Origin: Litorilituus sp.
Lineage (GTDB): Bacteria > Pseudomonadota > Gammaproteobacteria > Enterobacterales > Alteromonadaceae
Length of the DNA stretch: 43,437 nucleotides
Reading direction: 5' to 3'
Assembly (NCBI GenBank): GCA_030754235.1
Contig: JASMAS010000001.1
Span: 1-43,437, forward strand
The notes under the pieces were generated by a model, which was not told the DNA's origin, did no database searches, and saw only the letters and a program-made list of their open reading frames with translations. The translations under genes and the position numbers were made by a program. How positions within the stretch are numbered: position 1 is the first letter of the stretch; every line of letters begins with the position of its first letter. This document shows positions 6,947-29,984 of the stretch, piece by piece.

Positions 6947-7225
6947 TTAACTACGATATAAGGTTTTAATTAAGTGATAGCCAAACTTCGTTTTAATTGG
7001 TCCATGCACGGTTAACAGTTCTTTTTTAAATACTACATCATCAAATGCTCTTACCATTTGACCTCGACGAAACTCCCCTAAATCGCCGCCTTTTTTCTTT
7101 GAAGGGCAAATAGAGTGCCTTTTTGCTAACTGAGCAAAATTACCGCCTTGGGATAATTTTGCTTTGATTGCTAACGCTTCCTTCTGTGTTTTAACTAAAA
7201 TATGAACTGCTGCTGCACTTGCCAT
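6947..7225 (-). CDS. ppiC: PpiC, parvulin-type peptidyl-prolyl isomerase
   Basis: Cytoplasmic prolyl cis-trans isomerase of 92 residues, the same size as E. coli PpiC (93). It is a single rotamase domain with the parvulin signatures [43 protein letters not shown] and [14 protein letters not shown]; the conserved His residues of the active site are in the first and last of these. No signal peptide. It diverges from the carbonic anhydrase gene across a 143-base promoter region. Confidence 0.95.
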
Positions 7226-7288
7226 AATGACACCGACTAATCGTTTTTTATTATTATAGCGAATTTACTGGTAATACCATATTTTACT

Positions 7289-7316
7289 TTGACTAATTGG
7301 TATCATGACATAAAAT
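7289..7316 (+). promoter_or_regulatory. Putative sigma-70 promoter of the carbonic anhydrase gene
   Basis: TTGACT (7289-7294) and TAAAAT (7311-7316) separated by 16 bases, about 50 bases before the can start. A small dyad (GACAT-AAA-ATGTC) overlaps the -10 and could be an operator. Confidence 0.45.
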
Positions 7317-7368
7317 GTCAGCATCTAGTTTTTTAGCACTGTAATAACCAATTTGCATAGGTAAAAAT

Positions 7369-7971
7369 ATGAGTACAATAAAGCATTTATTTGAAAACAA
7401 TAAAAAGTGGGCAGGAAAAGTAACCGAAGAAAAACCAGAGTTCTTTCAAAGCCTATCTGAGCAACAAACACCTCAATACCTATGGATTGGCTGCTCAGAC
7501 TCTCGCGTACCCGCTAATGAACTGCTGGGTATGCAACCAGGTGAAGTATTTGTACACCGCAATATTGCCAATCAAGTTATTCATTCTGATCTTAACTGTT
7601 TATCTGTCATTCAATACGCCGTTGAAGTGTTAAAAGTCAAAGATATTATAGTCTGTGGTCATTATGGCTGCGGCGGTGTTAATGCTGCATTTCATGATGA
7701 AAGTAATGGTTTTATTGATAACTGGCTACGGCATATTCAAGATGTTTACCGCTTTAACCAACAAAAGCTAGATGCCGTCAGTGATGAAGCTGAGCGTGTA
7801 AACTTATTATGTGAATTAAATGTTATCGAGCAAGTCGCTAATGTTTGTCATACCACAGTATTGCGCAATGCTTGGCTTGCTGAGCAAAATGTTACTGTAC
7901 ATGGTTTAGTGTACAACTTAAAAGACGGTATTTTAAAAGATTTAAATGTGTCTGTTAGTGGAAATAAGTAA
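7369..7971 (+). CDS. can: Beta-class carbonic anhydrase
   Basis: Zinc enzyme interconverting CO2 and bicarbonate in the cytoplasm, supplying bicarbonate for carboxylations. The 200-residue protein has the zinc ligands Cys42, His98 and Cys101 and the Asp44-Arg46 dyad in CSDSRVP, all at the numbering of E. coli Can, plus HRNIANQV and CGHYGCGGV. It is about 20 residues shorter at the C-terminus than the E. coli enzyme. Ribosome site AGGTAAAA lies just upstream of the ATG. A hairpin follows the stop. Confidence 0.95.
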   Translation: MSTIKHLFENNKKWAGKVTEEKPEFFQSLSEQQTPQYLWIGCSDSRVPANELLGMQPGEVFVHRNIANQVIHSDLNCLSVIQYAVEVLKVKDIIVCGHYGCGGVNAAFHDESNGFIDNWLRHIQDVYRFNQQKLDAVSDEAERVNLLCELNVIEQVANVCHTTVLRNAWLAEQNVTVHGLVYNLKDGILKDLNVSVSGNK

Positions 7972-7987
7972 CAGCACCGAAAAAATG

Positions 7988-8019
7988 GACGAGCTACGAA
8001 AGATTTTTCGCGACTCGTC
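7988..8019 (+). terminator. Weak hairpin between convergent can and hpd
   Basis: GACGAG (7988-7993) pairs with CTCGTC (8014-8019), with an inner CGAAA/TTTCG stem. There is no clear T run, so a terminator role is only plausible. Confidence 0.35.
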
Positions 8020-8048
8020 ACTGTTTAACTTACTTTGTATGCGATTAT

Positions 8049-9128
8049 TTAAATAACGCCTCGTTCCATTTGATTTAACTCAATCGACTTAAATAACGTT
8101 GAAAAATTTCCTTCACCAAATCCCTGATCATTGACGCGTTGGATCATTTCAATAAAAATAGGACCAAACAAGTTTTTGGTAAATATTTGCAGTAAATAAG
8201 AATTATCTGCTTGGCTGTCTACTAAAATTTGATGCGCTTTGATCTTTTCTTTGTCTTCTTTAACCCAAGGAACACGTGTAAATATTTCATCATAATACTC
8301 TGGCACAATATGCAAAGTATCAACAACAGAGCGATCAAGTTTATCTAGTGAGTCAACCAAGTCATCGGTTAAAAACGCTAAATGCTGAACGCCTGGACCA
8401 TTATATTCATCTAGGTATTCGTCAATTTGATTATCTTTACTACCTTTGCCTTCATTAATTGGAATACAGAACTTGCCACAAGGCGATTGTAATGCATAAG
8501 AAATCAAAGCGGTTTTAATGCCTTTAATATCAAAATAGCGAACCTCGGTAAAACCAAAAACTTGCTTATAAAAATCAGCCCACTTTTGCATCGTGCCTTG
8601 GTAAACATTATTGGTGAGATGATCAACGGCTAAAAAGCCTTTGTCTTCAACGGTAACAGGCTGTTCATGGCCTTCAAAGTCAGCCTCATAAATAAGCCCT
8701 TTATTTGTCCCTACACTTCCTTCATCAGAAGCAAAGTTATCAATAAAATAAATCAAGCTATCACCAATACCAAAAATAGCAGGGTAAGGTAATTTATTTT
8801 CTTCATTTTCAGCTGATTTTGCGCCACGCTTAACCGCTTCTTCAAAAGCAAAGTTAGCATCTTCAACGCGCCAACCCATAGAGCAAATGGCAGGACCATG
8901 GTTTTTAGCAAATTCTTTAGAGAAACCTTTTGTTTCTCTATTTAATAAAAAGTGAATATCATTTTGATTAAAGTAATCAATATCACGACCTTTAAACTTT
9001 TTCGTTTTTGAAAAACCAAATCCATAAAAAGCCTTTTCCATAAAGTCAGAGTCTGGGCTCGCGTACTCAGTAAATTCAATTCCACATAGTTTTAATGGAT
9101 TTTTTGCTACAGCAGTTACATCACTCAT
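8049..9128 (-). CDS. hpd: 4-hydroxyphenylpyruvate dioxygenase
   Basis: Fe(II) dioxygenase turning 4-hydroxyphenylpyruvate into homogentisate in tyrosine breakdown, and the entry to pyomelanin in some marine bacteria. The 359-residue protein has two vicinal-oxygen-chelate halves. The C-terminal half carries the metal ligands His170 (LAVDHLTNNV), His249 (GPGVQHLAFLTDD) and Glu327 (GPIFIEMIQR), with the typical C-terminal GFGEGNFSTLFKSIE. Full length. No homogentisate dioxygenase is in the window. A TyrR-box-like site lies about 140 bases upstream, and an aminotransferase that could supply its substrate lies on the far side of the glutamate mutase operon. Confidence 0.96.
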   Translation of the reverse strand: MSDVTAVAKNPLKLCGIEFTEYASPDSDFMEKAFYGFGFSKTKKFKGRDIDYFNQNDIHFLLNRETKGFSKEFAKNHGPAICSMGWRVEDANFAFEEAVKRGAKSAENEENKLPYPAIFGIGDSLIYFIDNFASDEGSVGTNKGLIYEADFEGHEQPVTVEDKGFLAVDHLTNNVYQGTMQKWADFYKQVFGFTEVRYFDIKGIKTALISYALQSPCGKFCIPINEGKGSKDNQIDEYLDEYNGPGVQHLAFLTDDLVDSLDKLDRSVVDTLHIVPEYYDEIFTRVPWVKEDKEKIKAHQILVDSQADNSYLLQIFTKNLFGPIFIEMIQRVNDQGFGEGNFSTLFKSIELNQMERGVI

Positions 9129-9267
9129 TTATCATTCTCTTTTTTTGCGGGTAACTAGCCCTTATTCTCTTCGATAAGTGCTAGTTACTATTTATATGTC
9201 ATCACTTCATTATCTAGAGGATTTTAGCTAAGCGAAAGACCAGTCAAGATAGAAGCTAAAATGACAA

Positions 9268-9285
9268 TGTAAATGTAAATGTACG
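9268..9285. promoter_or_regulatory. TyrR-box-like site upstream of hpd
   Basis: TGTAAA-N6-TGTACG matches the TyrR consensus TGTAAA-N6-TTTACA at 10 of 12 positions. It lies about 140 bases before hpd. Regulation by TyrR/PhhR is inferred from this match and the aromatic role of hpd. The rest of 9129-9495 shows no gene. Confidence 0.4.
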
Positions 9286-9427
9286 AAAAAAACGGGTAGA
9301 AAATCTTCAATAACTAGAAATGCCTGATAACTACTGACCAATTTATGTATTAAATTCTTTACAACACTAAATAATACGGGAAAGCGACCCTTTGATGGAG
9401 GAGGAAATTATAGAGTTATTAAAAGCA

Positions 9428-9463
9428 AAAAGAGGATGAATAGTTACCTATTCATCCTCTTTT
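9428..9463 (-). terminator. Perfect 16-bp terminator hairpin after the mutase/ligase operon
   Basis: Arms of 16 bases (AAAAGAGGATGAATAG and its exact complement) with a 4-base loop. On the minus strand the hairpin is followed by a T-rich stretch, 33 bases past the ligase stop. It could also work in the opposite direction. Confidence 0.85.
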
Positions 9464-9495
9464 GGGCTATTGTCAATCGACAAATAGCAGTGACG

Positions 9496-11067
9496 TTATC
9501 TTTTAGACAACTCGCGTTTTAGCTCGTCTTTGTTAACAAGGTTTTTATCACTTTGCACCAGTGGTAGTGACTTCTTATAAACGATTAAGCTAGGAAGCAT
9601 GTAAGATGCTAAGTGTTTTTTCAGCTCGAATAAAATTTCATTGTCTGTTATTTCATTCGCGGCTGAATAAACTAAAACGATCTCTTCTTCAATCATATCG
9701 TTTTCTAAACCAAAAACAGCACACTGTTCTACATGAGGAATATTCTTTGCAACCACAGATTCAACTTCAAAAGGTGAGACTCTAAAGCCTCTTGTTTTGA
9801 TCATATCATCTTGCCTTGAAACGAAGTAAAGGTAGCCTTCTTCATCTTTATAAACATAGTCTCCAGTAGCCACAACAATTTCATCGGTTAACTGACCATC
9901 TAAATTAACAACATCTTTTAAAATTTGTACGGATTTAAATCGTTGGGCATTTTGCTCTGGTGCATTCCAAAAACCTCGGTAAATATAACCTCCACGATGA
10001 ATGAGTTCACCCACTTCCCGAATGCCACATTCTTTGCCGTCTTCATTGATAATATAAAGCTCAACATCGGGAATGGCTTTACCTATTGAGTCAGGTCTAA
10101 TTTGCGCCTGTGCAGGATCAAGGTAAGTAGAACGAAAAGCTTCTGTTAAGCCGTGCATTGAAAAAAAATCAGCCTGAGTAAAAGTGTTTTTACAATCTTT
10201 GATCATTTTAGCGGTGACATTACCACCTGATGAGGTAATAATCTTAACTGCTGAAAACAATTCAGCAGTAGGAATTCGCTGAACACTACCATCAAACATT
10301 TGTGACAGATTTACTGGCATTAAAGGTAAAACAGTCACTCTATCGTTGATAATATGGTTAAAGTAATCTTCCGGCAGAATAAAGCGGTGTAAGGCTAGGG
10401 TTGCTTTTTTATACAAAGTACAAAATATTTGATTCAAGCCGTAATCAAGATTAAAGATAAGAACGCCAGAAATAATATCATCATGACTTAATTTCAAGTA
10501 CTGAGAAACCACACGAGCAGAGTCAATTAAATTTCGGTGTGAAATCACTATACCTTTAGGATTTCCAGAAACACCAAAAGAGTAGGTGATTAGCGCGTTG
10601 TTGTGGCCATTAATATCACACTGATAAGACTTATTATAGTATTTAAAAATCTCTTCAAATGACGCCATATCGTTGCCTGCGGTTTCATAAGAAATAACAT
10701 GGCCGGCAAAGTCAATTTCTTCAACGCTTTCAAGTTTCACTTTATCTGTGATGATACATTGAATATCACAGTCATTAATAATATATTCCACTTGCTCAGG
10801 TTTTAACAAAGTGGTTAATGGCACTAAAATGTAATCTGTCGACAAAATAGCTAGCACCGCAATCACTTGCTCAATGCCTTTAGTTGAATATATACCAACG
10901 CGAGAATCTTTAGGTAAATCTAACTCACTTAAGTAACAAGCTACTTGGTTTACTTTGGTAAATAACGCTTGGTAAGTGATACTTTTTTCATTATAAACAA
11001 GTGCAGTTTTCTCACTATGAGCCGCAACTGCATCTTCAAGTAGTGTTCTTATACAGTTTATTGACAT
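9496..11067 (-). CDS. AMP-forming ligase resembling exosortase-A-associated acyl-CoA ligases; substrate unknown
   Basis: Adenylate-forming enzyme (ANL superfamily) of 523 residues; it should activate a carboxylate with ATP. Phosphate loop at 162-171 reads YSFGVSGNPK, deviating from the usual Ser-Gly-Thr-Thr-Gly. It has A5-type GLTEAFRSTYL (306-316) and RPDSIGKAIP, A7 TGD at 401, A8 DDMIKTRGFRVSPFEVES and a C-terminal lysine (Lys508) aligned with the catalytic A10 Lys. LTEAFRSTYL, RPDSIGKAIP and LLKPEQV are strongly reminiscent of the ligase family found beside exosortase A, yet no exosortase, carrier protein or condensation domain is nearby. It overlaps glmL by 10 bases and ends the glutamate mutase operon, so 3-methylaspartate or a derivative is a logical but unproven substrate. 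Confidence 0.75.
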   Translation of the reverse strand: MSINCIRTLLEDAVAAHSEKTALVYNEKSITYQALFTKVNQVACYLSELDLPKDSRVGIYSTKGIEQVIAVLAILSTDYILVPLTTLLKPEQVEYIINDCDIQCIITDKVKLESVEEIDFAGHVISYETAGNDMASFEEIFKYYNKSYQCDINGHNNALITYSFGVSGNPKGIVISHRNLIDSARVVSQYLKLSHDDIISGVLIFNLDYGLNQIFCTLYKKATLALHRFILPEDYFNHIINDRVTVLPLMPVNLSQMFDGSVQRIPTAELFSAVKIITSSGGNVTAKMIKDCKNTFTQADFFSMHGLTEAFRSTYLDPAQAQIRPDSIGKAIPDVELYIINEDGKECGIREVGELIHRGGYIYRGFWNAPEQNAQRFKSVQILKDVVNLDGQLTDEIVVATGDYVYKDEEGYLYFVSRQDDMIKTRGFRVSPFEVESVVAKNIPHVEQCAVFGLENDMIEEEIVLVYSAANEITDNEILFELKKHLASYMLPSLIVYKKSLPLVQSDKNLVNKDELKRELSKR

Positions 11068-12308
11068 AATTTTTTTCCTCTTTCTTTCAGGCTGGCAGCC
11101 TCAAGTGTCCAAATATCATAATGACTATCAAGAACCGTTACGGGGTTATGCTCTGAATTAAGAATTTTTTTATAAAAAAATGAAATAATATCTTCTATTT
11201 CTTCACGGATTAATACTTTTGTTATTCCTCCCGTTAAAACAATAGAATTAAGAGAAAGTAACTTTATATTGATATAGGCTTTTCTATAGTGTGAAATTTT
11301 GCATAAAACCAAAAAGATAGCGAGCTGCATCAGTATTTTTGTTGCTTTTTTGCTTTGCTCTTCAAAAATATTTTCTGTCACTTTTAAATGCATTAACAAC
11401 TCATAAACAAATTCATTATTTTTTGCGGCAAAAATTAGCGACTGTTTAGATTTATAAACACCTAATTTTTTAAACACCAACCTGTCGTATTCATTTTCTG
11501 AAACCAAATTATCATCCACTAAATCTTTTGAGTAATGAATATCAGTAGTTGCCCCGCCAATATCCAATAATATAAAAGGATTAACCACAGAGAATTTAGC
11601 ATCAATTAACGGCAGTGTTTTATTCACAATATAAGGTGTGGGATATATTTGATTAGAAGTGATGTTATACAAGTTTTTTACATCCTCTTTGCCTTCAATA
11701 TCTTGTTGATAGAGATGAGTAAGATAGTCGCTTAAATGATCTTCAACTATATGTAATCTGTTATCAATAATGTTTGGCAATATCACTACGTGATCAATAT
11801 TCTCTTCTACTGTTGGCGCATCGATTTCATTACCCACAAAAACAATATTTGAATAATGCAATTGCGCTAAATAGTCATATAACCGTGATGAAAAAACACC
11901 ACCATTTGAGTTAATACCACCAACAATAATCACAACATCAATTAAATCACTTGGTATAGAGTAGTCTTCAATATCTTGATAAAGCACAGTATCGATAATA
12001 TTTATACCAGAATTAAACGCAATGTTAGTGGCATACTTGAGTGAAAACGTATGACTAATACCCACAATCAATGTCGTTAAACCACCATTAGCTGATGAAC
12101 AAATATGTACATCTTTTTTAGCAAAACCTGCAATAGTATCACCACACTTTTGCATCAAATCATCTAAAATATCTTTATTAAAGTCTCTAAAGTGCTGCTC
12201 TAAATTATCATCTGTGCTGAGTTTGAAGTAAGTACTACCCACGTCAATAAGCAACTTTTCATCACGGTTGTTACTATCTTGGTTAGTTTCAATTGCGGCA
12301 CTGCTCAT
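11058..12308 (-). CDS. glmL: GlmL/MutL-type glutamate mutase repair ATPase
   Basis: Actin/Hsp70-fold ATPase of 416 residues, of the family thought to reactivate adenosylcobalamin glutamate mutase by exchanging damaged cofactor. Phosphate-1 motif LLIDVGSTYFK (19-29), SSANGGL (71-77), phosphate-2 motif LLDIGGATTDIHY (247-259) and a late adenosine motif IVLTGGI. Somewhat shorter than most GlmL proteins (about 460-480). It overlaps glmE by four bases (ATGA) and the ligase by ten, so all four genes are translated as a unit. Known GlmL genes usually sit between glmS and glmE; here it follows glmE. Confidence 0.85.
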   Translation of the reverse strand: MSSAAIETNQDSNNRDEKLLIDVGSTYFKLSTDDNLEQHFRDFNKDILDDLMQKCGDTIAGFAKKDVHICSSANGGLTTLIVGISHTFSLKYATNIAFNSGINIIDTVLYQDIEDYSIPSDLIDVVIIVGGINSNGGVFSSRLYDYLAQLHYSNIVFVGNEIDAPTVEENIDHVVILPNIIDNRLHIVEDHLSDYLTHLYQQDIEGKEDVKNLYNITSNQIYPTPYIVNKTLPLIDAKFSVVNPFILLDIGGATTDIHYSKDLVDDNLVSENEYDRLVFKKLGVYKSKQSLIFAAKNNEFVYELLMHLKVTENIFEEQSKKATKILMQLAIFLVLCKISHYRKAYINIKLLSLNSIVLTGGITKVLIREEIEDIISFFYKKILNSEHNPVTVLDSHYDIWTLEAASLKERGKKLCQ

Positions 12309-13669
12309 TGCATAATTCCTATATCGTGAATAATATCGTTAACAATACTGGTAGTATCTTTGGTTAAATCACATTGCGCCTTGTCATAGGCATAGCAGCG
12401 ATCCGGTATAGGCACATTACCTCTTTTTATAATACGAATATTTTTCTTGGCATCTCTAATAGTGATCATCTTATTATGATTAATAATATGCGGGGAAAAT
12501 GGCACATCAATGACACCGCTTTTGATCGAATTAAACACTTTACGCCACAAGGTATCTGCAGGGTCATTAAATACAGCTTCCATGATCGCTTTGACTTGCA
12601 ATGTTAATATTTCTTCTTCTTCTTCATCAACAATATTAGGCAAGCCATTGAGTATACCTAGGGTGTATTGGGTATTGGCTACCGTTTTAGCATTGGCTTC
12701 TTTGGTGGGAATACCTGAGGCTTCTTCTCGGGTTTTGGTGATGATTTTATCTGCACCAACCATTGAAGCAATGACGGTAGACATGTTAATCAACTGCTCT
12801 GCATAGTCTTTGTTGGTTGGAAATGCTCCCATCCACTGGTGATAAACTAGGTGTATAGCCGCATCAGCACAGTTAATTTGCTCAGCATAATATTTTGCTA
12901 ACTTTTTAATGACCGCACCTGTGACTATATCTTGATTCATTGACCCCGTTTGTGAAAAAGACACCGAGAAAGATTTAACCCCTTCTTCTAATGAGAGCAA
13001 CATTTCTAATAATTGAATAACAATGGTAATTGCTGGTGGCACTAACGTCGCGGTTAATGGACCAAAAGATTCTCGATTAATGGGCTCATTAAGTTGTGAA
13101 TAATTAGCGCAAACACGCTCAACATATTTCCAATATAAAAAGGCTTTATCTAAGGGAAAGTTTTTTGAGTAAGGTAAAAGGTAAGTAATTGGTCCGCCTT
13201 CAATTTCAAAAATACCTGAAGCGATGGCCGTTTCAATCAGTAACCGAGCGTCTGGCGTACCATGCCTTAGACTCACTGGCTTATTAAAATGTGTGATCAT
13301 TTTACGGGTTGTTCTATAACCGTGATTAACTAAGGGATAACCGTTAAGCATATCCACATCATTTTCCTCACTTAAACGCAGCATTTTTTTTGCTGTTGCA
13401 TAATCATTAAGGCGAGTATTTGAGTCAATAGTCAAGGGAAGCACATCAACATTAGCTTTCACAAAAAACTCATTAAGGGCAAACTGCTTTTGATAGGTTG
13501 GAAAACCACCTCGAGGTTGCACTAGCATTTTATTTTTTTGTTTAAAATGATGCGATATAAATAAGTCTTTACTGGCACCTTTTACAAACTTAGCAACTTC
13601 GTCAAAATCAAAGTTATCTACGTATTCATTGCTAAGAATGATTTCTCTTTCTTCCTGCAGCAAACTCAT
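12305..13669 (-). CDS. glmE: Glutamate mutase (methylaspartate mutase) epsilon subunit
   Basis: Catalytic TIM-barrel subunit; with GlmS and adenosylcobalamin it converts L-glutamate to (2S,3S)-3-methylaspartate. The 454-residue protein keeps the substrate residues known from the Clostridium enzyme: the arginine claw Arg53 (QPRGGF), Arg86 (SNTR) and Arg135 (SLRHGTPD), and Glu157, Tyr163, Tyr167 in EGGPITYLLPY. The spacing of these residues matches that enzyme with a steady offset, so it should be active. Shorter than the clostridial protein (about 480). Starts one base inside the glmS stop (TAATG). No methylaspartate ammonia-lyase is in the window, so its product is used another way. Confidence 0.92.
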   Translation of the reverse strand: MSLLQEEREIILSNEYVDNFDFDEVAKFVKGASKDLFISHHFKQKNKMLVQPRGGFPTYQKQFALNEFFVKANVDVLPLTIDSNTRLNDYATAKKMLRLSEENDVDMLNGYPLVNHGYRTTRKMITHFNKPVSLRHGTPDARLLIETAIASGIFEIEGGPITYLLPYSKNFPLDKAFLYWKYVERVCANYSQLNEPINRESFGPLTATLVPPAITIVIQLLEMLLSLEEGVKSFSVSFSQTGSMNQDIVTGAVIKKLAKYYAEQINCADAAIHLVYHQWMGAFPTNKDYAEQLINMSTVIASMVGADKIITKTREEASGIPTKEANAKTVANTQYTLGILNGLPNIVDEEEEEILTLQVKAIMEAVFNDPADTLWRKVFNSIKSGVIDVPFSPHIINHNKMITIRDAKKNIRIIKRGNVPIPDRCYAYDKAQCDLTKDTTSIVNDIIHDIGIMQ

Positions 13670-14139
13670 TATTTATTACTCTCTTTTATATCACTATCGT
13701 TAACGACTCTTTCTTCAATAAAGGCTTCTAGTTGATCTAAACCCGTATTTAAATCTACTTGGTGACACACAATATCAAAACCATAATTTTTATATTTGGG
13801 GATGATATCTTCTGCGCTTCCCGTCCCCACAACTAAATTACCACCTATCATCATAATAAGGTTATCTAAGTGTTTGTATTTAGCTTTAAGTAACTGAACT
13901 TCTCTGCTCCACCCTTCCGCTTCACCATTAAGGGAAGATATCATCAAAACGTCGGCTCCCGTTTCTACAACCGCATCAAAAAACTCTTCTAAATAGGTGT
14001 TAACTCCAAGGTTAAACACTTCATATCCTCTTGCATCTAAAGAGAGTTCAAGTAATCGGTTGGCAACGACATGAATATCATTACCAACTACGCCTGTTAC
14101 TACTTTCATATTTTTTAAAGCCCGAACTTGTATATACAT
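13669..14139 (-). CDS. glmS: Glutamate mutase sigma subunit, B12-binding
   Basis: Rossmann-like cobalamin-binding subunit of glutamate mutase (not glucosamine synthase). B12 motif DxHxxG is present as DIHVVA: the Asp and the cobalt-ligating His are kept, but the final Gly is Ala. SSLNGEAEG and IGGNLVVGTG match the other cofactor contacts. At 156 residues it is longer than usual (about 137); the Met at 14109 would give 146 residues and the usual start KVVTGVVG. Neither start has a clear ribosome site, and the upstream Met sits directly against a 25-base palindrome, so the start is undecided. First gene of the operon. Confidence 0.88.
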   Translation of the reverse strand: MYIQVRALKNMKVVTGVVGNDIHVVANRLLELSLDARGYEVFNLGVNTYLEEFFDAVVETGADVLMISSLNGEAEGWSREVQLLKAKYKHLDNLIMMIGGNLVVGTGSAEDIIPKYKNYGFDIVCHQVDLNTGLDQLEAFIEERVVNDSDIKESNK

Positions 14140-14164
14140 ATATATTCACTTTTAGTGAATATAT
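14140..14164. promoter_or_regulatory. 25-base palindrome between glmS and the RraA-like gene
   Basis: Perfect 11-base arms ATATATTCACT and AGTGAATATAT around TTT. It lies in the 109-base divergent region of the two genes and ends exactly at the upstream glmS start codon. A dimeric repressor or activator serving both promoters is the natural reading; it does not match a box I know. Confidence 0.6.
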
Positions 14165-14247
14165 AGTACCAAATTTTCTATCAAAACACTTCTTTAATGC
14201 TAGAATACTGGCTTATACCCTATATAAAAAAAGAACAGGAATTAATT

Positions 14248-14727
14248 ATGACGTTTTTTACTGCAGATATCTGCGACGACCATAGTGACAAGGTATCTGT
14301 ATTAGGCACTGGCTATAAAAATTATGGTGGTGTGAGCAAATGCCAAGGTGAAATTATCACCATAAAATTAGAGAAAAATAACACGGAACTCATTAAACTA
14401 CTGCGAGACGAAAACGGTTCAGGCAAAGTGGTGGTAGTTGATGTTGCCCAAGAATATTATGCCGTAGTTGGTGAAAATTTGATGAAATTTGCTCAGCAAA
14501 ATAATTATAACGGCATCATTATCAACGGTTACATTAGAGACACCTTCCAAATCACGGGAATTCCGGTGGCATTATTTGCGTTAGGGACTTGCTCAAGAAA
14601 ATATATTCCTGTGACTCAGGGTAAAAGAGGACTCAAGTTATCCTTTGGAGGTATTGAATTTAATCATGGTGACTATTTATATGCTGACACCGATGGGGTC
14701 ATTGTATCCCCCAAAAAAATAGTATAA
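14248..14727 (+). CDS. RraA/HMG-aldolase family protein with the catalytic Arg-Asp pair
   Basis: A 159-residue protein covering the whole RraA fold (E. coli RraA has 161). I chose the ATG at 14248, preceded by AGGA, because the 17 upstream codons in frame have no family match. The family holds RNase E inhibitors (RraA) and class II pyruvate aldolases (4-hydroxy-4-methyl-2-oxoglutarate aldolase) that also decarboxylate oxaloacetate. This protein has VVGENL (73-78) and INGYIRDT with Arg97-Asp98, the metal/substrate pair that aldolases keep and that E. coli RraA has lost (Arg-Gln). It is therefore more likely an enzyme than an RNase regulator. Divergent from the glutamate mutase operon across a shared palindrome; decarboxylation of 3-methyloxaloacetate is one attractive but untested role. 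Confidence 0.75.
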   Translation: MTFFTADICDDHSDKVSVLGTGYKNYGGVSKCQGEIITIKLEKNNTELIKLLRDENGSGKVVVVDVAQEYYAVVGENLMKFAQQNNYNGIIINGYIRDTFQITGIPVALFALGTCSRKYIPVTQGKRGLKLSFGGIEFNHGDYLYADTDGVIVSPKKIV

Positions 14728-14759
14728 ATATCTAATTCGCTTGAATACAAAGAAACAAC

Positions 14760-14787
14760 AGCCCACAGTAATTGCTAGCAGTGGGCT
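14760..14787. terminator. Hairpin between convergent genes
   Basis: AGCCCAC (14760-14766) pairs with GTGGGCT (14781-14787) between the RraA-like gene and the aminotransferase. T runs are poor on both sides. Confidence 0.45.
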
Positions 14788-14812
14788 TATAGCAAGTTAA
14801 TCGTTTTGTAGG

Positions 14813-16003
14813 TTAAAGTATTTTAGCAATAGATTGCGTTAAGTAATCAACATTAGTTGGCGAAATACCGGCAAGACTGATACGACTTGAACCCACAATA
14901 TAAATACTAAATTCATCTTGTAAGCGCTGAACTTGTTCTTTATCAATACCTAAAAACGAGAACATCCCTTTTTGTGTAGTAATAAAACTAAAGTCACGAG
15001 TGACGCCATTTTCAACTAATTTATCCACGAATAACTGACGCATGCCATTAATACGATCACGCATCTCTTCTAACTCGCTGTGCCATTGTGTTGTAAGCGT
15101 TGGCGAACTCAAGATAGTTTCAACTATTGCGGCACCATGAGCTGGTGGCATAGAGTAAATAACACGTACCACAGCAAGTAATACCGAATTAATAATATCA
15201 GCATAAGCAGCACTGCTGCCAATAATAGAGCAAGCACCAATACGTTCACGGTATAAACCAAAATTTTTAGAACATGAACTACAAATAATCATTTGTTCAA
15301 CAGAGTCTGCCATTAACCTTAAGCCATAAGCATCGGCATCTAAGTCTTCACCAAAGCCTTGATAAGCCATATCAACCACGGGTATAAAGCCAATATGATT
15401 AGCCACTTCAGCAACTTGCTGCCATTGCTCTTTACTTAAGTCCATACCACTTGGATTATGACAACAAGCATGTAATAACACTGCATCTTCTTTAGGTATT
15501 TGTTTTAACGCTGCTAGCATACCATCAAAATCTAAACAGTTATTTTCATAATCATAATAAGGGTAGGTTTTAACACTTAAACCCGCCGCTTTAAAAATAC
15601 CTTGGTGATTTGCCCAAGTAGGGTTACTTACCCATATAGTAGCACCGGGTGTACAGGTTTTAATAAACTCACCTGCAACACGCAAAGCCCCAGTACCACC
15701 AGGAGTAGACACAGTACGAATACGGTTTTGAGCAATCACGTTGTGCGCTTTGCCCAACATGAGCTCTGTCATTTTTTCATTAAATAAACCAGAGCCCGCT
15801 GAGCCTAAATAAGCTTTACTTGCTTCCTGTTCAACACGATATTGTTCGGCAGCTTTTACGCAAGCTAAAACAGGTGTTCTTCCTACTTCATCTTTATAAA
15901 TGCCAGCACCAAGATCTATTTTATTCGGGTTATTATCCGCTTTATATTTTACCGACAAACCCAAAATAGGATCTGCTGGTACTTGCTTTAACTGAGTAAA
16001 CAT
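14813..16003 (-). CDS. Aspartate/aromatic aminotransferase (class I)
   Basis: PLP enzyme of the AspC/TyrB type, 396 residues from MFTQLKQVPADPILGL, which matches the family start and has AAGG upstream; a Met ten codons earlier is also in frame. PLP Lys246 lies in CSSCSKNFGLY, with Asn183 in HNPSG, Asp211 and Tyr214 in DMAYQGF, and the substrate-carboxylate Arg in SSRISLAGI. The family exchanges amino groups among Asp, Glu, Phe and Tyr; the sequence does not settle the preference. A TyrR-like box 33 bases upstream and hpd nearby favour tyrosine breakdown. It would also be able in principle to transaminate 3-methylaspartate from the adjacent mutase operon. Confidence 0.9.
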   Translation of the reverse strand: MFTQLKQVPADPILGLSVKYKADNNPNKIDLGAGIYKDEVGRTPVLACVKAAEQYRVEQEASKAYLGSAGSGLFNEKMTELMLGKAHNVIAQNRIRTVSTPGGTGALRVAGEFIKTCTPGATIWVSNPTWANHQGIFKAAGLSVKTYPYYDYENNCLDFDGMLAALKQIPKEDAVLLHACCHNPSGMDLSKEQWQQVAEVANHIGFIPVVDMAYQGFGEDLDADAYGLRLMADSVEQMIICSSCSKNFGLYRERIGACSIIGSSAAYADIINSVLLAVVRVIYSMPPAHGAAIVETILSSPTLTTQWHSELEEMRDRINGMRQLFVDKLVENGVTRDFSFITTQKGMFSFLGIDKEQVQRLQDEFSIYIVGSSRISLAGISPTNVDYLTQSIAKIL

Positions 16004-16035
16004 ACTTTTTACTACCTTTTTAATTTTCCACATGT

Positions 16036-16059
16036 TTCTGTACCAAAATCGATACAGAA
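16036..16059. promoter_or_regulatory. TyrR-like inverted repeat before the aminotransferase
   Basis: Seven-base arms TTCTGTA and TACAGAA around 10 bases. The core TGTACC-N6-GATACA fits the geometry of the TyrR box (TGTAAA-N6-TTTACA) at 8 of 12 positions. It lies 33 bases before the chosen start. Confidence 0.4.
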
Positions 16060-16721
16060 TATTTATTCATAATAAGTTTAGCGATTATACCTCAAGCTTT
16101 TTAAAAAAAAGCCCGCTCCTAAATAAAATTTGAATAAAAATTAGATTTAATCTAATAAAATCCCAGCACCACAATCAGTTGTTAGATTAAAAAACACCAA
16201 AAGTGAGACACATAAGACAGTCTATCAATACTTAGCGCTATATATTAATTGAAGATTAGAATAACTTAGCACTTAAAAAAATATAGATACGATAAACAGT
16301 TGAACTGTGCATAACTTTTCGCTATGAACGACTAAAACTTTGCTACTGTTTCTTTAAACAAATGGTTGAGAAGATAGGTTCACTCTAAATAGGCCATAGG
16401 GCAAAATCATGAATATTTCACACCTATACGAAAATGACTCACACATTAATGAAGAATTGAGCTTTGAAATAACAATGAATACGATTAACAAACCAAGAAA
16501 TAAAACAAGCAAGGCGACATTAATAAGCGAAATATTAATACTAGTTGATGAGACAACACCAAATTATGTTCTAGGTTATAATTAATGAGTGCCTAATATC
16601 TCATATGTAGATTAGAAAAGTTATTTACCTGTTTGGAGAACATTTCAATAGTCTCTATTTGATAGCAAGTATGCTTATTAAAACACTTATATATACTTAT
16701 ATTTTTTATAATTTAACAAAA
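16060..16721. other. AT-rich intergenic stretch
   Basis: About 660 bases without a confident gene. It holds one possible 58-codon ORF (16409-16585). Nothing else recognisable: no clear terminator, repeat or promoter pair. Confidence 0.5.
16409..16585 (+). CDS. Possible small protein of 58 residues
   Basis: ATG to TAA, 58 codons, beginning MNISHLYENDSHINEELSFE. A weak ribosome site (AGGG) lies 8-11 bases upstream. The product is polar with a short hydrophobic stretch (LISEILILV) and no recognised domain. In DNA this AT-rich an ORF of this length can occur by chance. Confidence 0.25.
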   Translation: MNISHLYENDSHINEELSFEITMNTINKPRNKTSKATLISEILILVDETTPNYVLGYN

Positions 16722-18308
16722 TTAACGAACAAACTTACCTGCTAAGATGTTGAGGTATTCACCATCTTTAATCACTTGTTGACCATTGACAAAAACTTGC
16801 TCAACTCCTGAGGAATATTTATTCCAATGGGAGAAGTCGGCATTAGCCTTGAAATTTCGACTATCAAAAACAATCACATCAGCCTGATAGCCAATAGCCA
16901 ATTGACCTCGCTCTTCAATACCCAATATTTCTGCTGTTTGGCTTGAGCTTTGGCGAATAAACTCTGCAATGGATAATAAAGAGTTTCCTGCAACATAGGT
17001 TTGGAATTTTTTCGGAAAACTTGCATATTTTCTGGGGTGACCATTAGTGCCATCCGACGAAGTTACTACCCAAGATTGCACCATAAACGCTTCAACATCG
17101 GTTGGCGACATGTTAAACGAGGCAACACGTACATCCCCTTCTTGCACTAACTGAATTGCAACAGTGACGGGATCTACAGATCTTTTTTTAGCAATCTGCA
17201 ATAAATTCATACCCACTAGGTTTTGATCTTTAAATGCGGTTACCAACAAAGATTCAGGCCCACCACGACGGCGAATATTTTCAGCAATTTCATTGTGCAA
17301 TTTCTCAGTTAAGCGTTCATCGTTTAAGCGTTGATAGAACGCCTTCGTTGAATCTGCCATAACCCATTTTGGTATAACTGCACTATGCAATTTAGTACCC
17401 GAAGCAAGCCATGGATATTGATCTGCAGAAATACTAACCCCCGCTTCTTTTGCAGCCAAAACTTTATCAATAGCTATTTTACTTTGCCCCCAGACATCAA
17501 CTCCTAGTGCCTTGATGTGTGCTAAATGAAGATGTATATCAGCACTTGCTGCTATATCAATAGCCTCATCTAAAGCTGCAATAAAACCAATATTGAAGGT
17601 ACTTTCATCACGTAAATGAGTGTCGTAAATACCATTATACTGACGTGCAACCTTTGCTAAAGTGATCACTTCTTCAGTATTTGCAAAGCTACCAGGCACA
17701 TAATAAAGTCCAGATGATATCCCCAGTGCACCTGCCTCCATACCATTGGCTAATAATGTCGACATTTGAGCGAGTTCTTGAGTTGTTGCAAATCGCTGCT
17801 CTCGACCCATCACTTGCTCACGAATACTACCATGACCTACAAGTAATCCTACATTAGTACCAATACCGTTTGCCTCTAAAGCGATTGCTGTAGCGGCAAC
17901 ATCTACTGGCCCTTCGCCATCATTACCATTAACAACGGTTGTCACGCCTTGCGTTAAATAGTTTAGGTTATGATTTTGATCTGAACTTAATAGCTCTTCT
18001 AGTGTGTGAGTATGTGGATCAATAAAGCCTGGGCTAACCACCTTACTTTTGGCATCAATAATATTGAAAGCATCAATATTGTGTTGCCCTGTAGGATATA
18101 AGCCACAAATAGTTTTACCACATATCGCCACATCTAAAGACTGGCCTTGCGCACTTTTACCCGTATAAACCGTACCATTTATGATTAAAATATCGGCAAC
18201 AATATCCGCTGTAGTTTGCTTTTCTTGTTCTTGGTTTTGATTAGTGCATGATGCTATGACAAACAAAACTATTGCTAGCGTGATAAAGGGATTATTAAAC
18301 CACTTCAT
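16722..18308 (-). CDS. N-acyl-D-amino-acid deacylase, lipoprotein
   Basis: Amidohydrolase-superfamily enzyme of 528 residues that removes acyl groups from N-acyl-D-amino acids. The N-terminus is a lipoprotein signal: a hydrophobic stretch then VIAS-Cys21, with Thr at +2, so outer-membrane anchoring is expected. Metal-binding PGFIDPHTHTLEE gives His99 and His101; further conserved blocks are DTHLRDES, HLHLAHIKALG and SSDGTNGHPRKYASFP near the end. Most D-aminoacylases are cytoplasmic, so the lipoprotein form suggests work on exported or environmental substrates. It starts 8 bases after the M14 peptidase stop and belongs with the TonB receptor operon. Specificity for D-Glu derivatives is suggested only by the neighbouring dgc genes. 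Confidence 0.88.
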   Translation of the reverse strand: MKWFNNPFITLAIVLFVIASCTNQNQEQEKQTTADIVADILIINGTVYTGKSAQGQSLDVAICGKTICGLYPTGQHNIDAFNIIDAKSKVVSPGFIDPHTHTLEELLSSDQNHNLNYLTQGVTTVVNGNDGEGPVDVAATAIALEANGIGTNVGLLVGHGSIREQVMGREQRFATTQELAQMSTLLANGMEAGALGISSGLYYVPGSFANTEEVITLAKVARQYNGIYDTHLRDESTFNIGFIAALDEAIDIAASADIHLHLAHIKALGVDVWGQSKIAIDKVLAAKEAGVSISADQYPWLASGTKLHSAVIPKWVMADSTKAFYQRLNDERLTEKLHNEIAENIRRRGGPESLLVTAFKDQNLVGMNLLQIAKKRSVDPVTVAIQLVQEGDVRVASFNMSPTDVEAFMVQSWVVTSSDGTNGHPRKYASFPKKFQTYVAGNSLLSIAEFIRQSSSQTAEILGIEERGQLAIGYQADVIVFDSRNFKANADFSHWNKYSSGVEQVFVNGQQVIKDGEYLNILAGKFVR

Positions 18309-27836: not shown

Positions 27837-29906
27837 CTAAAATTTAACAATAATCGGCGCAGTAACGTGTGTATCAACCCCAATATAAGCGGCTTGATGA
27901 CTCAAGGTATTATACAGATTAGGTATTTGATTTTTGCTGTATGCGCTTTGCCATTCAATTAAAGCAAAGTCGTCAATGTTTAACGAGCTACTCTCGCCGT
28001 TTTGCAATTGAATTTCAGCAATGACACGATAACTTTTATAACCAACTCGTGGTGAGTTAAAGTTAACTTCAATATTTTGCCAACCAGATTGCCCCTTTAA
28101 ATTAACGGTTTCAATATGATGCTTTTTACCGTTATTAAATGCGTCAAATAGTTTTTGTCGTTTTTTCCTTCCTTGCCAATAAAATGTTATCTTCACTGCT
28201 TTATTTGTACTGAACTTACCTTTAACAGTCATAGCACTGCTTGGGTTATACACCCGTTTGAAGCTTTGCATACCGAAGGTACTGATAATATTTTTTTGCA
28301 GAGTAATGCCAAGGCTACGTTGGCCACTTGCGCCAAAGTTATTTAATTTTGTTGTTAAGCGATCAAATACCCAACCTCGTTCAGGGCTATTAAATGTAGC
28401 AAAACTTTCAAAGTCACTGCCATTAATTAAATTAGTGCCTAATCGATACCTACTTTCTTTATTTGGCATCATTACGGCTTTAAGGCTTTGGTGCCATGGC
28501 AGTTGGTAAAGAGGTGTTACCTTTTCATCTTCAGCAAAAGTAATAGCGAAATGTGTTTTATTATTGCTCTTATGGTTTGAGTTCGCTTGTTCATCTATGC
28601 GGATAACACCATGTCCGCCTGAGTGAGAAATAAGGGTATTTCGTTGCTTAGATAGCTCGGTTAAACGCTTCATCACAGTATATCGATGCATACCAGTTGC
28701 TGGCGTAGGCTTATAACCTTTAACATAAAGTGGTACTATTTCTGCTCGATGAAATTTACCATCATCTAACCAGACATAAAGGATCAAACTATGTTGTGTT
28801 GCACTAAAGTTTTGATCAAAAATAAAATTTCCCATGGAGTAAGCAATTAACTTGTTATTGTATAATTCTATTCCCTGAGCAACATGTGGATGATGGGCAA
28901 TAGCAAGAGAAGCACCAGCATCAAGAGCTGATTTTAGCCGTTGCTCTGTTACTCCTGTAGGGTTATTTGCGTACTCTTGGCTGCCATGGTATTGCACAAT
29001 AGTGACATAGTCTTTAGTTACCTGTTTAGTCACAGAAGTTAAAATATTATCCATAGAGCCGTAAGCAGCGCCCCCATGTTGACTATTGGCTGTTTGCGTT
29101 GGATTGCCACTTCCCTCCCAACCAACATAACCAAGCATGGCTAAATTAGTATTATTCACTGTAGTTTTGTGAGCTTTCAATGCTGATGCTTGATTTTTTC
29201 CTGCACCCGAATAAGCTAAAGCGCTCTCATTTAAATAGGCTAAAGTTGACTCTAAGCCTGAGTCCATATAATCATAGGTATGATTATTTCCCAATGACAC
29301 ATAATCAACACCCGCCCAAGCTAGCGCAGCTAAAGTTTCAGGCTGAGAGAAAAAAGTGACTGACTTAGGAGCACGCTCAGCTGGTTTCATATCGGCAATT
29401 TGAGTCTCCAAATTAACCAACGCATAATCAGCAATGCTCATATACGGTTTGATATATCGCACAATAGATTTACTGTCAGATAGCTTATTTTCAGGATGAA
29501 TTAACACCTCATCACCAAAATAAGGTTTATAGTACCTACGCCCCATCATGACATCTCCGCCAAATGCTAACATAATGCGATTATCAGCTTTCTGCACAAG
29601 AGTGATATCTGCTATTTTAGCTGACTGTTGCTGTAGCTCGAAGTGGCTAAAAGTTTGTAATGCTCGATAGTACCCCCCCTTCGACAGTTTTAGTTGATAG
29701 ATATCATTAATAGGCACGTTTAATGTAAATTGGCCAAGATTGTTGGTTTTTGTTTTAACGTTATTAACAATAATATACACATTTTCTAGAGCAAGTCCCT
29801 GTTCGTTAACAACATTGCCTGTTATCGAAAAGGGAGAAAAAGCAAACAAAAAGCTACTTTTGAGCAGCATAAACATAAAACTAAGACGAAAACTAAGGCG
29901 TAGCAT
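27837..29906 (-). CDS. CapA/PGA_cap-type protein with N- and C-terminal beta domains
   Basis: Exported protein of 689 residues. A hydrophobic N-terminus (to about 24) is followed by a carboxypeptidase-regulatory-like beta domain (about 26-108, FSITGNVVNEQGLALENVYI). The PGA_cap domain spans about 112-370 with LAFGGDVMMGRRYY, LVNLETQI, VSLGNNHTYDYMDSGL, VQYHGSQEY, IAHHPHVAQGIE and YSMGNFIFDQ, the metallophosphatase-like core of proteins linked to poly-gamma-glutamate capsules. The last 200 residues (from GSDFESFATFNSPERGW) look like a beta-sandwich binding module. Whether it builds, anchors or cleaves a glutamyl polymer cannot be told; no capB/capC is nearby. It is followed by the ArgR paralogue. 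The ATG at 29906 is preceded by a GTG in frame. Confidence 0.82.
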   Translation of the reverse strand: MLRLSFRLSFMFMLLKSSFLFAFSPFSITGNVVNEQGLALENVYIIVNNVKTKTNNLGQFTLNVPINDIYQLKLSKGGYYRALQTFSHFELQQQSAKIADITLVQKADNRIMLAFGGDVMMGRRYYKPYFGDEVLIHPENKLSDSKSIVRYIKPYMSIADYALVNLETQIADMKPAERAPKSVTFFSQPETLAALAWAGVDYVSLGNNHTYDYMDSGLESTLAYLNESALAYSGAGKNQASALKAHKTTVNNTNLAMLGYVGWEGSGNPTQTANSQHGGAAYGSMDNILTSVTKQVTKDYVTIVQYHGSQEYANNPTGVTEQRLKSALDAGASLAIAHHPHVAQGIELYNNKLIAYSMGNFIFDQNFSATQHSLILYVWLDDGKFHRAEIVPLYVKGYKPTPATGMHRYTVMKRLTELSKQRNTLISHSGGHGVIRIDEQANSNHKSNNKTHFAITFAEDEKVTPLYQLPWHQSLKAVMMPNKESRYRLGTNLINGSDFESFATFNSPERGWVFDRLTTKLNNFGASGQRSLGITLQKNIISTFGMQSFKRVYNPSSAMTVKGKFSTNKAVKITFYWQGRKKRQKLFDAFNNGKKHHIETVNLKGQSGWQNIEVNFNSPRVGYKSYRVIAEIQLQNGESSSLNIDDFALIEWQSAYSKNQIPNLYNTLSHQAAYIGVDTHVTAPIIVKF

Positions 29907-29984
29907 CACTAATCCAACACTAAATTATTTTAGTCAGTATATATTTTTCTCAAGACAGTTTTTATTCTAAATTAAAGGGGAGCC

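Follow-up and report, generated by a model that had tools for sequence, protein, structure and literature searches.

A conserved glutamate mutase cassette of Litorilituus sp. with a VinN-like ligase of altered ATP motifs: a candidate 3-methylaspartate module

What does a glutamate mutase serve in a genome in which no methylaspartate ammonia-lyase is found? The question is raised by a gene cluster of Litorilituus sp. (assembly GCA_030754235.1, contig JASMAS010000001.1), located in a stretch of 43,437 nucleotides that was analysed as a whole and is called the window here. At 9496-14139 on the minus strand, glmS, glmE, glmL and a gene for an AMP-binding protein (LIG) overlap by 1, 4 and 10 bases in the open reading frame list, as an earlier reading of the DNA from its sequence alone (the sequence-only reading) had described in treating them as one unit. 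An RraA-like gene diverges from this string, and it is followed by an aminotransferase gene (AAT) that the sequence-only reading overlooked and that is a cassette member in many gammaproteobacteria. The genes are listed below, with the evidence for each in brackets.

9496..11067, minus strand: LIG, ANL-superfamily (AMP-binding) protein, 523 amino acids, VinN-like amino-acid pocket, altered ATP motifs (families, pocket alignment)
11058..12308, minus strand: glmL-like ASKHA (MutL/GlmL) protein, 416 amino acids, presumably the mutase reactivase (family scans, motif alignment)
12305..13669, minus strand: glmE, glutamate mutase epsilon subunit, 454 amino acids (family scans, alignment)
13669..14139, minus strand: glmS, B12-binding sigma subunit, conserved start at 14109 (family scans, relatives' starts)
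14197..14727, plus strand: RraA-like metal-dependent aldolase/decarboxylase family protein, likely start 14248 (family scans, relatives' starts)
14813..16033, minus strand: AAT, cassette-specific class I aminotransferase, AspC/TyrB type (family scans, paralogue counts, tree)

Family scans place the glmE product in PF06368 (385 bits), GlmS in PRK02261 (144 bits, above the cut-off of 110), the glmL product in the MutL/GlmL family PF13941 (84 bits), LIG in the AMP-binding family PF00501 (197 bits) and the RraA-like protein in PF03737 (112 bits). GlmE scores slightly below the cut-off of TIGR01503 (373 against 390.1) and GlmL far below that of its equivalog family (71 against 475), so both are divergent members. 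The glmS-glmE-glmL-LIG string with its divergent RraA-like gene is a real, conserved cassette. A scan of species genomes with GlmE returned 214 relatives, of which the best 80 were used for locus counts; many of the rows are metagenome bins, and the record titles name gammaproteobacteria, betaproteobacteria, Campylobacterota and one Rhodothermales bin. LIG is present in 76 of the 80 loci (best hit), the remaining 4 having less than 3 kb of downstream sequence, and in 67 the RraA-like gene is no more than 3 kb away, with 2 loci lacking room and 11 lacking the gene inside that distance. Three of these 11 carry it farther off in the locus (L042, L070, L088), one has a broken frame (L028) and 7 have none in the locus. 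In L028 (Colwellia maritima) the apparently broken RraA-like frame, at 8910-9437, accompanies an otherwise complete cassette.

The association was also examined in other genome samples. Among 249 Campylobacterota genomes, 22 have GlmE (one of them, G682, being the genome of L090), and all 22 are of the cassette type; LIG was found in 22 of 22 loci, with only its start in view in 17, and it adjoins glmL in 21, while in L219 (8133-12649) unrelated genes split glmE from glmL-LIG. By eye some of these intervening genes look toxin-antitoxin-like; no search was made. Of 295 genomes sampled in the family to which the window belongs, PF06368 is matched by 11, and 10 of them are of the cassette type, one across two contigs. 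In 398 sampled genomes of the phylum, 6 exceed the cut-off: 2 cassettes, 1 canonical fermentation operon with methylaspartase and 3 further cases, namely G700 (fused GlmS-GlmE) and G701, both with a LIG relative beside the mutase, and one other. A sample of 369 genomes of the class, with at most 4 candidates scored in each, contains LIG homologues of at least 71% identity in 4 genomes, the window's own included, and all 4 adjoin glmL; the next best match is 37%. Pairwise distances of LIG, GlmE, GlmL, the RraA-like protein and AAT (GlmS left out) correlate with r between 0.48 and 0.81, a level reached in 0 of 500 permutations per pair. The mutase, the ligase and the RraA-like gene are co-conserved in other genomes, and the prospect that the ligase might not accompany the mutase, raised by the sequence-only reading against itself, is not borne out.

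Wide shuffling between phyla was not seen, since the 22 Campylobacterota form one clade and 2 phylum changes suffice in a quick tree of 75 concatenated rows. A plasmid-borne cassette was likewise rejected: LIG matches occur in 70 plasmid records, every one below 60% identity and the best listed at about 35%, and those carrying feature names are, among the matches listed, exosortase-A ligases. As a separate observation, the GlmE, GlmL and LIG proteins of L094 are identical to those of L097, a locus on another contig of the same Aliarcobacter bin; this may reflect duplication or an assembly artefact.

The sequence-only reading had noted that methylaspartase was missing and had named its presence elsewhere in the genome, under the same control, as fatal to its argument. 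A search with the methylaspartase from the canonical operon, which gave a full match in a control genome, found no METHYLASPARTASE (methylaspartate ammonia-lyase) in the window's genome. Only 1 of 27 cassette-genome handles has a methylaspartase, on a different contig (G679, Pseudomaricurvus); two of these handles, G194 and G662, gave identical TIGR03099 results and are apparently one genome. The cassette shares GlmS, GlmL and GlmE with the methylaspartate fermentation operon and the methylaspartate cycle but differs in having no detected ammonia-lyase, which in the canonical operon (L204) stands beside GlmE.

The key residues of the mutase epsilon subunit are intact. In an alignment to the solved Clostridium enzyme, GlmE keeps R66, R100 and R149 (the arginine claw), E171 and Y177, whose roles are described in the accessible part of PMC9545868. 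All 88 GlmE rows carry the same residues in these columns and in the two for H150 and Y181, which bears out the statement in the sequence-only reading that the substrate residues are retained; the alignments here hold the window, the named loci and seven others (five for GlmS), some of them from the same genomes as named loci. The DVGST and DIGGATTD motifs of GlmL-like proteins are invariant or nearly so in 84 rows. In the S subunit, B12 is bound through a DxHxxG motif; in all 40 rows passing the length filter, cassette GlmS keeps the D and H but reads DxHxxA, with Ala for the Gly, while the GlmS of L204 has the canonical Gly. Judging by the intact residues, GlmS/GlmE with GlmL would convert glutamate to (2S,3S)-3-methylaspartate.

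Which substrate, then, would LIG take? For residues 157-343, VinN (3WV4/3WV5, 3WVN) is the best single-domain solved match, second and third by E-value behind a synthetase that sums two domains. LIG D208, Y209, S280, F311 and R312 pair with VinN D230, F231, S299, K330 and R331, ungapped in the shortened loop; an excerpt of PMC11253843 lists as VinN determinants the residues D230, F231 and S299 together with the shortened loop, which carries K330 and R331. The LIG pocket is invariant in 82 of 82 cassette rows, near-duplicates counted, and among four deeper Campylobacterota rows one has Leu at position 311. In 26 relatives of LIG (34-37% identity), taken from 37 non-cassette genomes with a match, the pocket holds D in 26, Y in 23, S in 23, F in 26 and R in 26. 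The presence of D208 and R312 speaks for a substrate of the amino dicarboxylic type and against a fatty acid.

A pairing of glutamate mutase with a ligase that activates 3-methylaspartate has a precedent in vicenistatin biosynthesis (VinH/VinI and VinN; PMC11284099, consulted in part), and the claim of the sequence-only reading that a ligase route looked new has to be reduced to that extent. The cassette resembles the vicenistatin set (VinH/VinI, VinN, VinL, VinO) in its mutase and its stand-alone ANL enzyme with a matching pocket; it differs in that its loci have no match to a VinL-like carrier or a VinO-like decarboxylase, in the altered ATP motifs and F311 for K330 of LIG, and in the added RraA-like and AAT genes. 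The closest named ligase family is the exosortase-A ligase TIGR03098, for which LIG scores 426.9 bits, below the cut-off of 592.35; the LIG of L090 scores 446 bits, and two relatives scanned as controls reach 718 and 819, above it. The pocket residues are the same in most of the 26 relatives, but annotated members of the exosortase-A system adjoin a TIGR03099 decarboxylase and a carrier, which 0 of 80 cassette loci have, and their A3, A5 and A10 motifs are canonical where those of LIG are altered; a long branch separates LIG from them. Beyond the loci, TIGR03099 exceeds its cut-off elsewhere in three other cassette genomes (G194, G679, G683). A further set in G700, at 5801-12490 of L205 (G700:C15:54000-72000), combines a 32% LIG relative having Ala at the position matching LIG 280 with the fused GlmS-GlmE, a TIGR03099-like decarboxylase and a phosphopantetheine-binding carrier protein; its ligase (505 bits against TIGR03098) and its decarboxylase (443 bits against TIGR03099) are both below the cut-offs. 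By analogy, this suggests a vicenistatin-like set leading from 3-methylaspartate to a 3-aminoisobutyryl-carrier in a proteobacterium, and such a context ties the pocket family to 3-methylaspartate. Together with the shared pocket, the fused mutase of G700 would also suggest an amino dicarboxylic acid as the substrate of the unassigned exosortase-A ligases, and the G700 set suggests a substrate for the unassigned TIGR03098/TIGR03099 pair.

The remaining two genes point to another use of 3-methylaspartate. RraA-like class II pyruvate aldolases/oxaloacetate decarboxylases carry a D/E-x20-R-D motif, and the window protein keeps it as E93-x20-R114-D115, with E in 71 and D in 1, R in 72 and D in 72 of 72 rows. 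Roles of Arg-123 and Asp-124 in RraA-like aldolases are described in the part of PMC5065237 available to us. The window protein resembles the RraA / HMG-CHA aldolase family in its PF03737 membership and its catalytic Arg-Asp pair; it is unlike the rest in that cassette-type RraA is a group of its own, with an identity of about 28-34% to the genome's two other RraA-like proteins. Its score is slightly below the cut-off for the RNase E regulator RraA (PRK09372, 134.7 against 136). All 9 cassette genomes that were tested have a cassette-type RraA (best match at least 49%; split into two pieces in G663), whereas the best match in cassette-less congeners is at most 35% in 3 of 3. G680, G681 and G684 have it elsewhere although their loci L086, L089 and L094 do not; for L095, L098, L103, L220 and L222, where the gene is not nearby, the search covered the locus.

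The AAT gene is no chance neighbour, a possibility rejected on paralogue counts and a tree. Twelve further gammaproteobacterial cassette genomes have an aminotransferase 71-86% identical to the window's AAT near the cassette, and these and the window's genome carry a second, more distant one (67% in the window's genome), whereas 8 cassette-less congeners have one aminotransferase at 71-74%, with a second at 38% in G207 and G247; no close cassette AAT was seen in G668 (Vibrio) and G677 (Granulosicoccus). The 13 cassette AATs form one clade with a value of 99 in the Shimodaira-Hasegawa-like approximate likelihood ratio test, in a rapidly built tree of 30 rows, other parts of which contain some long branches. 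In class I aminotransferases Lys258 and Asp222 are the pyridoxal phosphate residues and Arg292 and Arg386 the substrate residues, and all four are kept in 40 of 40 AAT rows. These residues fit a plausible conversion by AAT and the RraA-like enzyme of 3-methylaspartate to 3-methyloxaloacetate and on to 2-oxobutyrate, by which a route from glutamate to 2-oxobutyrate would be complete on paper in the gammaproteobacteria with AAT. A glutamate-mutase route is listed among the known routes to 2-oxobutyrate in the portion of PMC7476758 consulted (citing Abramsky 1962). The window resembles that route in having the mutase, an aminotransferase and a member of a 2-oxo-acid decarboxylase family, but its genome adds a threonine deaminase, and the ligase stands outside the route. 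The regulatory domain of threonine deaminase is matched in 28 of 30 cassette genomes, the window's included, above the cut-off in 21, the remaining 7 being weak matches in Campylobacterota. Since threonine deaminase is present, the AAT/RraA route is not a replacement isoleucine route, the evidence for this being weak in Campylobacterota. The first of two routes in the sequence-only reading, by transamination and decarboxylation to 2-oxobutyrate as a source of isoleucine carbon, has gained a dedicated AAT and conserved RraA residues but does not stand as a substitute supply of isoleucine.

These observations lead us to a tentative proposal, to which we give somewhat less than an even chance: the cassette would be a free-standing 3-methylaspartate module, in which a VinN-like LIG with an altered ATP site is the committed step and the AAT/RraA branch drains the excess. 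GlmS/GlmE with GlmL would supply 3-methylaspartate from glutamate, and LIG would recognise it as a beta-amino acid, as VinN does. With its altered ATP-binding loop, LIG would most likely activate the beta-carboxyl of 3-methylaspartate for transfer to an acceptor, a thiol or an amine, whose gene lies elsewhere. As a second outlet, suggested by residues and co-occurrence, AAT would transaminate 3-methylaspartate to 3-methyloxaloacetate and the RraA-like enzyme would decarboxylate this to 2-oxobutyrate, draining the surplus and pulling an unfavourable mutase equilibrium. That equilibrium favours glutamate (0.093, given there as a Km, in the section of PMC8307300 consulted), so a sink is needed, and LIG, if it uses ATP, and AAT with the RraA-like enzyme would be the two encoded sinks. 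A more specific version holds that in marine gammaproteobacteria and Campylobacterota a free-standing pathway links the beta-carboxyl of 3-methylaspartate to a housekeeping acceptor (a carrier protein, coenzyme A, RNA or envelope polymer), with the ANL ATP site rebuilt or no ordinary adenylation taking place, and with AAT/RraA keeping free 3-methylaspartate and the 2-oxo acid low; we regard this as possible but rather unlikely.

Several findings weigh against the proposal, among them the ATP motifs of LIG. A3 reads YSFG[LMVI][TS]G, not YTSGSTG, and A5 has H305 for Tyr, each in 82 of 82 cassette rows against 0 of 26 relatives, all 26 of which have canonical A3 and A5 and the catalytic A10 Lys. 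At A10, the position of K508 holds Lys in 63 of the 82 cassette rows, with Arg in 8 and other residues in the remaining 11; position 510 is Lys in 26, and neither 508 nor 510 is Lys in 16. YSFG and MHG are retained in the four deeper Campylobacterota rows; two have Ser back at 166, two have Arg for K171, and two read HGKEIDK or EAKIDK at A10, so that A10 is better called degenerate than lost. Furthermore, over the whole of LIG, VinN ranks only 10th (18th with a profile), behind gramicidin, tyrocidine and other synthetase domains, and F311 stands in place of VinN K330. Partners are also missing: TIGR03099 is below its cut-off in the window's genome (207 against 478), clustering of open reading frames of at least 70 amino acids from the 80 loci yielded no further gene recurring in more than 11, and three carrier proteins and two decarboxylases of known systems had no match in the 80 loci up to E 0.001. 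This direct search was added as small carrier proteins could escape the clustering; in its control each query recovered its own locus, the decarboxylases matching 6 of 6 control loci and the carriers two to five. Finally, the AAT gene is present in 34 of 80 loci, 13 have no room for it, and it is missing from 33 of the 67 with room and was seen in no Campylobacterota locus. With A3 and A5 altered and A10 degenerate, the label 'AMP ligase' is insecure and adenylation is not to be assumed. The second route of the sequence-only reading, activation of 3-methylaspartate by the ligase, has accordingly gained a VinN-like pocket and been weakened by the altered A3 and A5, the absence of the A10 Lys in 19 of 82 rows and the lack of a known carrier or decarboxylase in the 80 loci.

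The same motifs lend themselves to a different account, in which glutamate to 2-oxobutyrate is the main job and LIG is a 3-methylaspartate-binding pseudo-ligase that senses the product or tunes the mutase, and our confidence in the mixed pathway is modest because LIG may be such a sensor. Altered A3 and A5 beside an invariant pocket would suit a sensor, dedicated AAT and RraA-like genes would complete the route, and the route is already among the known ones. The residues of the thiolation state argue otherwise: K434, R439 and E327 in GrsA, according to a review of which part was available, correspond by motif to LIG K424, R429 and E309, and of the 82 rows all have E309 and R429, and 81 have K424, the residue in the remaining row being unknown. 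A sensor would not need them, and this conserved side argues that acyl transfer by LIG still matters. The window's LIG also keeps K508, and both the threonine deaminase matches and the 33 loci with room and no AAT speak against 2-oxobutyrate as the purpose. We consider this account conceivable, with the chances well against it.

The converse, that activation of 3-methylaspartate is the sole purpose, would make the RraA-like enzyme a metabolite repair of accidental 3-methyloxaloacetate and AAT incidental. LIG and GlmL are indeed the tightest-linked partners, RraA accompanies the cassette even unlinked and AAT is lineage-restricted; the separate AAT clade near the cassette in several gammaproteobacterial families, however, suggests a real step, and we judge this account unlikely. 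Doubtful, too, is the idea that LIG acts on a different acid, be it aspartate, glutamate or a fatty acid, and stands with the mutase as a matter of operon convenience. VinN accepts aspartate at low efficiency (PMC11284099, same partial source), and exosortase-A ligases share the pocket with no mutase seen nearby, but LIG is a discrete clade found in the sampled class only with the mutase, and D208 and R312 tell against the fatty acid. We think it most improbable that the module runs in reverse or catabolically, making glutamate from imported 3-methylaspartate or from a 3-methylaspartyl compound: the mutase equilibrium cited above would favour this direction, but the sampled flanks contain no conserved gene beyond the cassette, hence no transporter or hydrolase, and an RraA-like decarboxylase would compete.

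Each part of the preferred module is of a known kind; new to us are the way in which the parts are combined and the condition of LIG. Searches of one literature collection found no paper on the cassette combination, on glutamate mutase with RraA or on methylaspartate with methyloxaloacetate, and we know of no report of 3-methylaspartate use in the marine genera concerned. The cassette, tightly conserved in these marine groups (Colwellia, Sulfurimonas, Arcobacter relatives, Halieaceae, Oceanospirillaceae), is a predicted maker of a non-protein amino acid; if confirmed, it would provide either a gene-complete route from glutamate to 2-oxobutyrate, proposed decades ago, or a new 3-methylaspartyl product. 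LIG is also a natural example of an adenylating fold whose pocket and thiolation-state residues are kept while its ATP motifs have changed.

The region between the divergent genes was also examined. With the starts of the RraA-like gene at 14248 and of glmS at 14109, chosen from the relatives' conserved start codons and a promoter-like -10 box at 14201-14206, the gap is about 138 bases; the divergence and the palindrome reported in the sequence-only reading stand, and its 109 bases do not. Three elements were marked here.

14198..14206, plus strand: TGCTAGAAT, extended -10-like box of the RraA-like gene (conserved across families)
14163..14171, minus strand: TGGTACTAT, extended -10-like box of glmS (conserved across families)
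14139..14165, no strand: TATATATTCACTTTTAGTGAATATATA, 27-base palindrome with 12-base arms and a 3-base loop, operator-like (shuffles)

From 63 extracted intergenic sequences, the 14 longer than 200 bases were set aside; with the window's own sequence the set numbers 50. The RraA-side box pattern occurs in 41 of these, the glmS-side pattern, which is loose and without a shuffle control, in 48, and both in 40, with a spacing of 35-38 bases in 35. The palindrome is beyond chance, as 0 of 1000 dinucleotide shuffles reach 12; a similar TATTCA/TGAATA repeat was seen in some Colwelliaceae only, so an operator conserved family-wide was rejected. Riboswitch control was rejected as well, with no Rfam match in 7000-17000.

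Some observations concern the surroundings of the RraA-like gene in other genomes. Four Campylobacterota (G680, G682, G684, G686) have two or three cassette-type RraA-like copies per genome, with 48-67% identity. In the Arcobacteraceae loci L210, L211, L215, L216 and L090, the gene opens a collinear set that can hold a cyclotransferase-like gene (190 amino acids), an unknown gene of about 740 amino acids and ovoA (ovothiol), L216 being without the middle two; family-library scans cover the L210 proteins and one of L216. Ovothiol synthesis as a general cassette partner was rejected on co-occurrence over 80 genomes: among gammaproteobacteria OvoA is above its cut-off in 4 of the 25 genomes with the cassette and in 9 of the 26 without it, among Campylobacterota in 11 of 13 with it and in 2 of 14 without it, a comparison confounded by kinship, in 0 of 2 other cassette genomes and in 26 of 80 overall, and none above the cut-off was found in the window's genome.

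Beside the cassette, the window carries at 16722-27162 genes for an amidohydrolase, an M14 peptidase, a TonB receptor, a glutamate symporter, a LysR regulator, a DUF1611 protein and enolase-superfamily proteins, possibly for peptide or D-glutamate utilisation; the amidohydrolase, M14 peptidase and symporter were searched for beside 80 other cassettes and none was seen. An IS66-type transposase fragment lies at 280-774, and 27837-29909 encodes a PGA_cap (capsule synthesis) family protein with a carboxypeptidase-regulatory-like domain.

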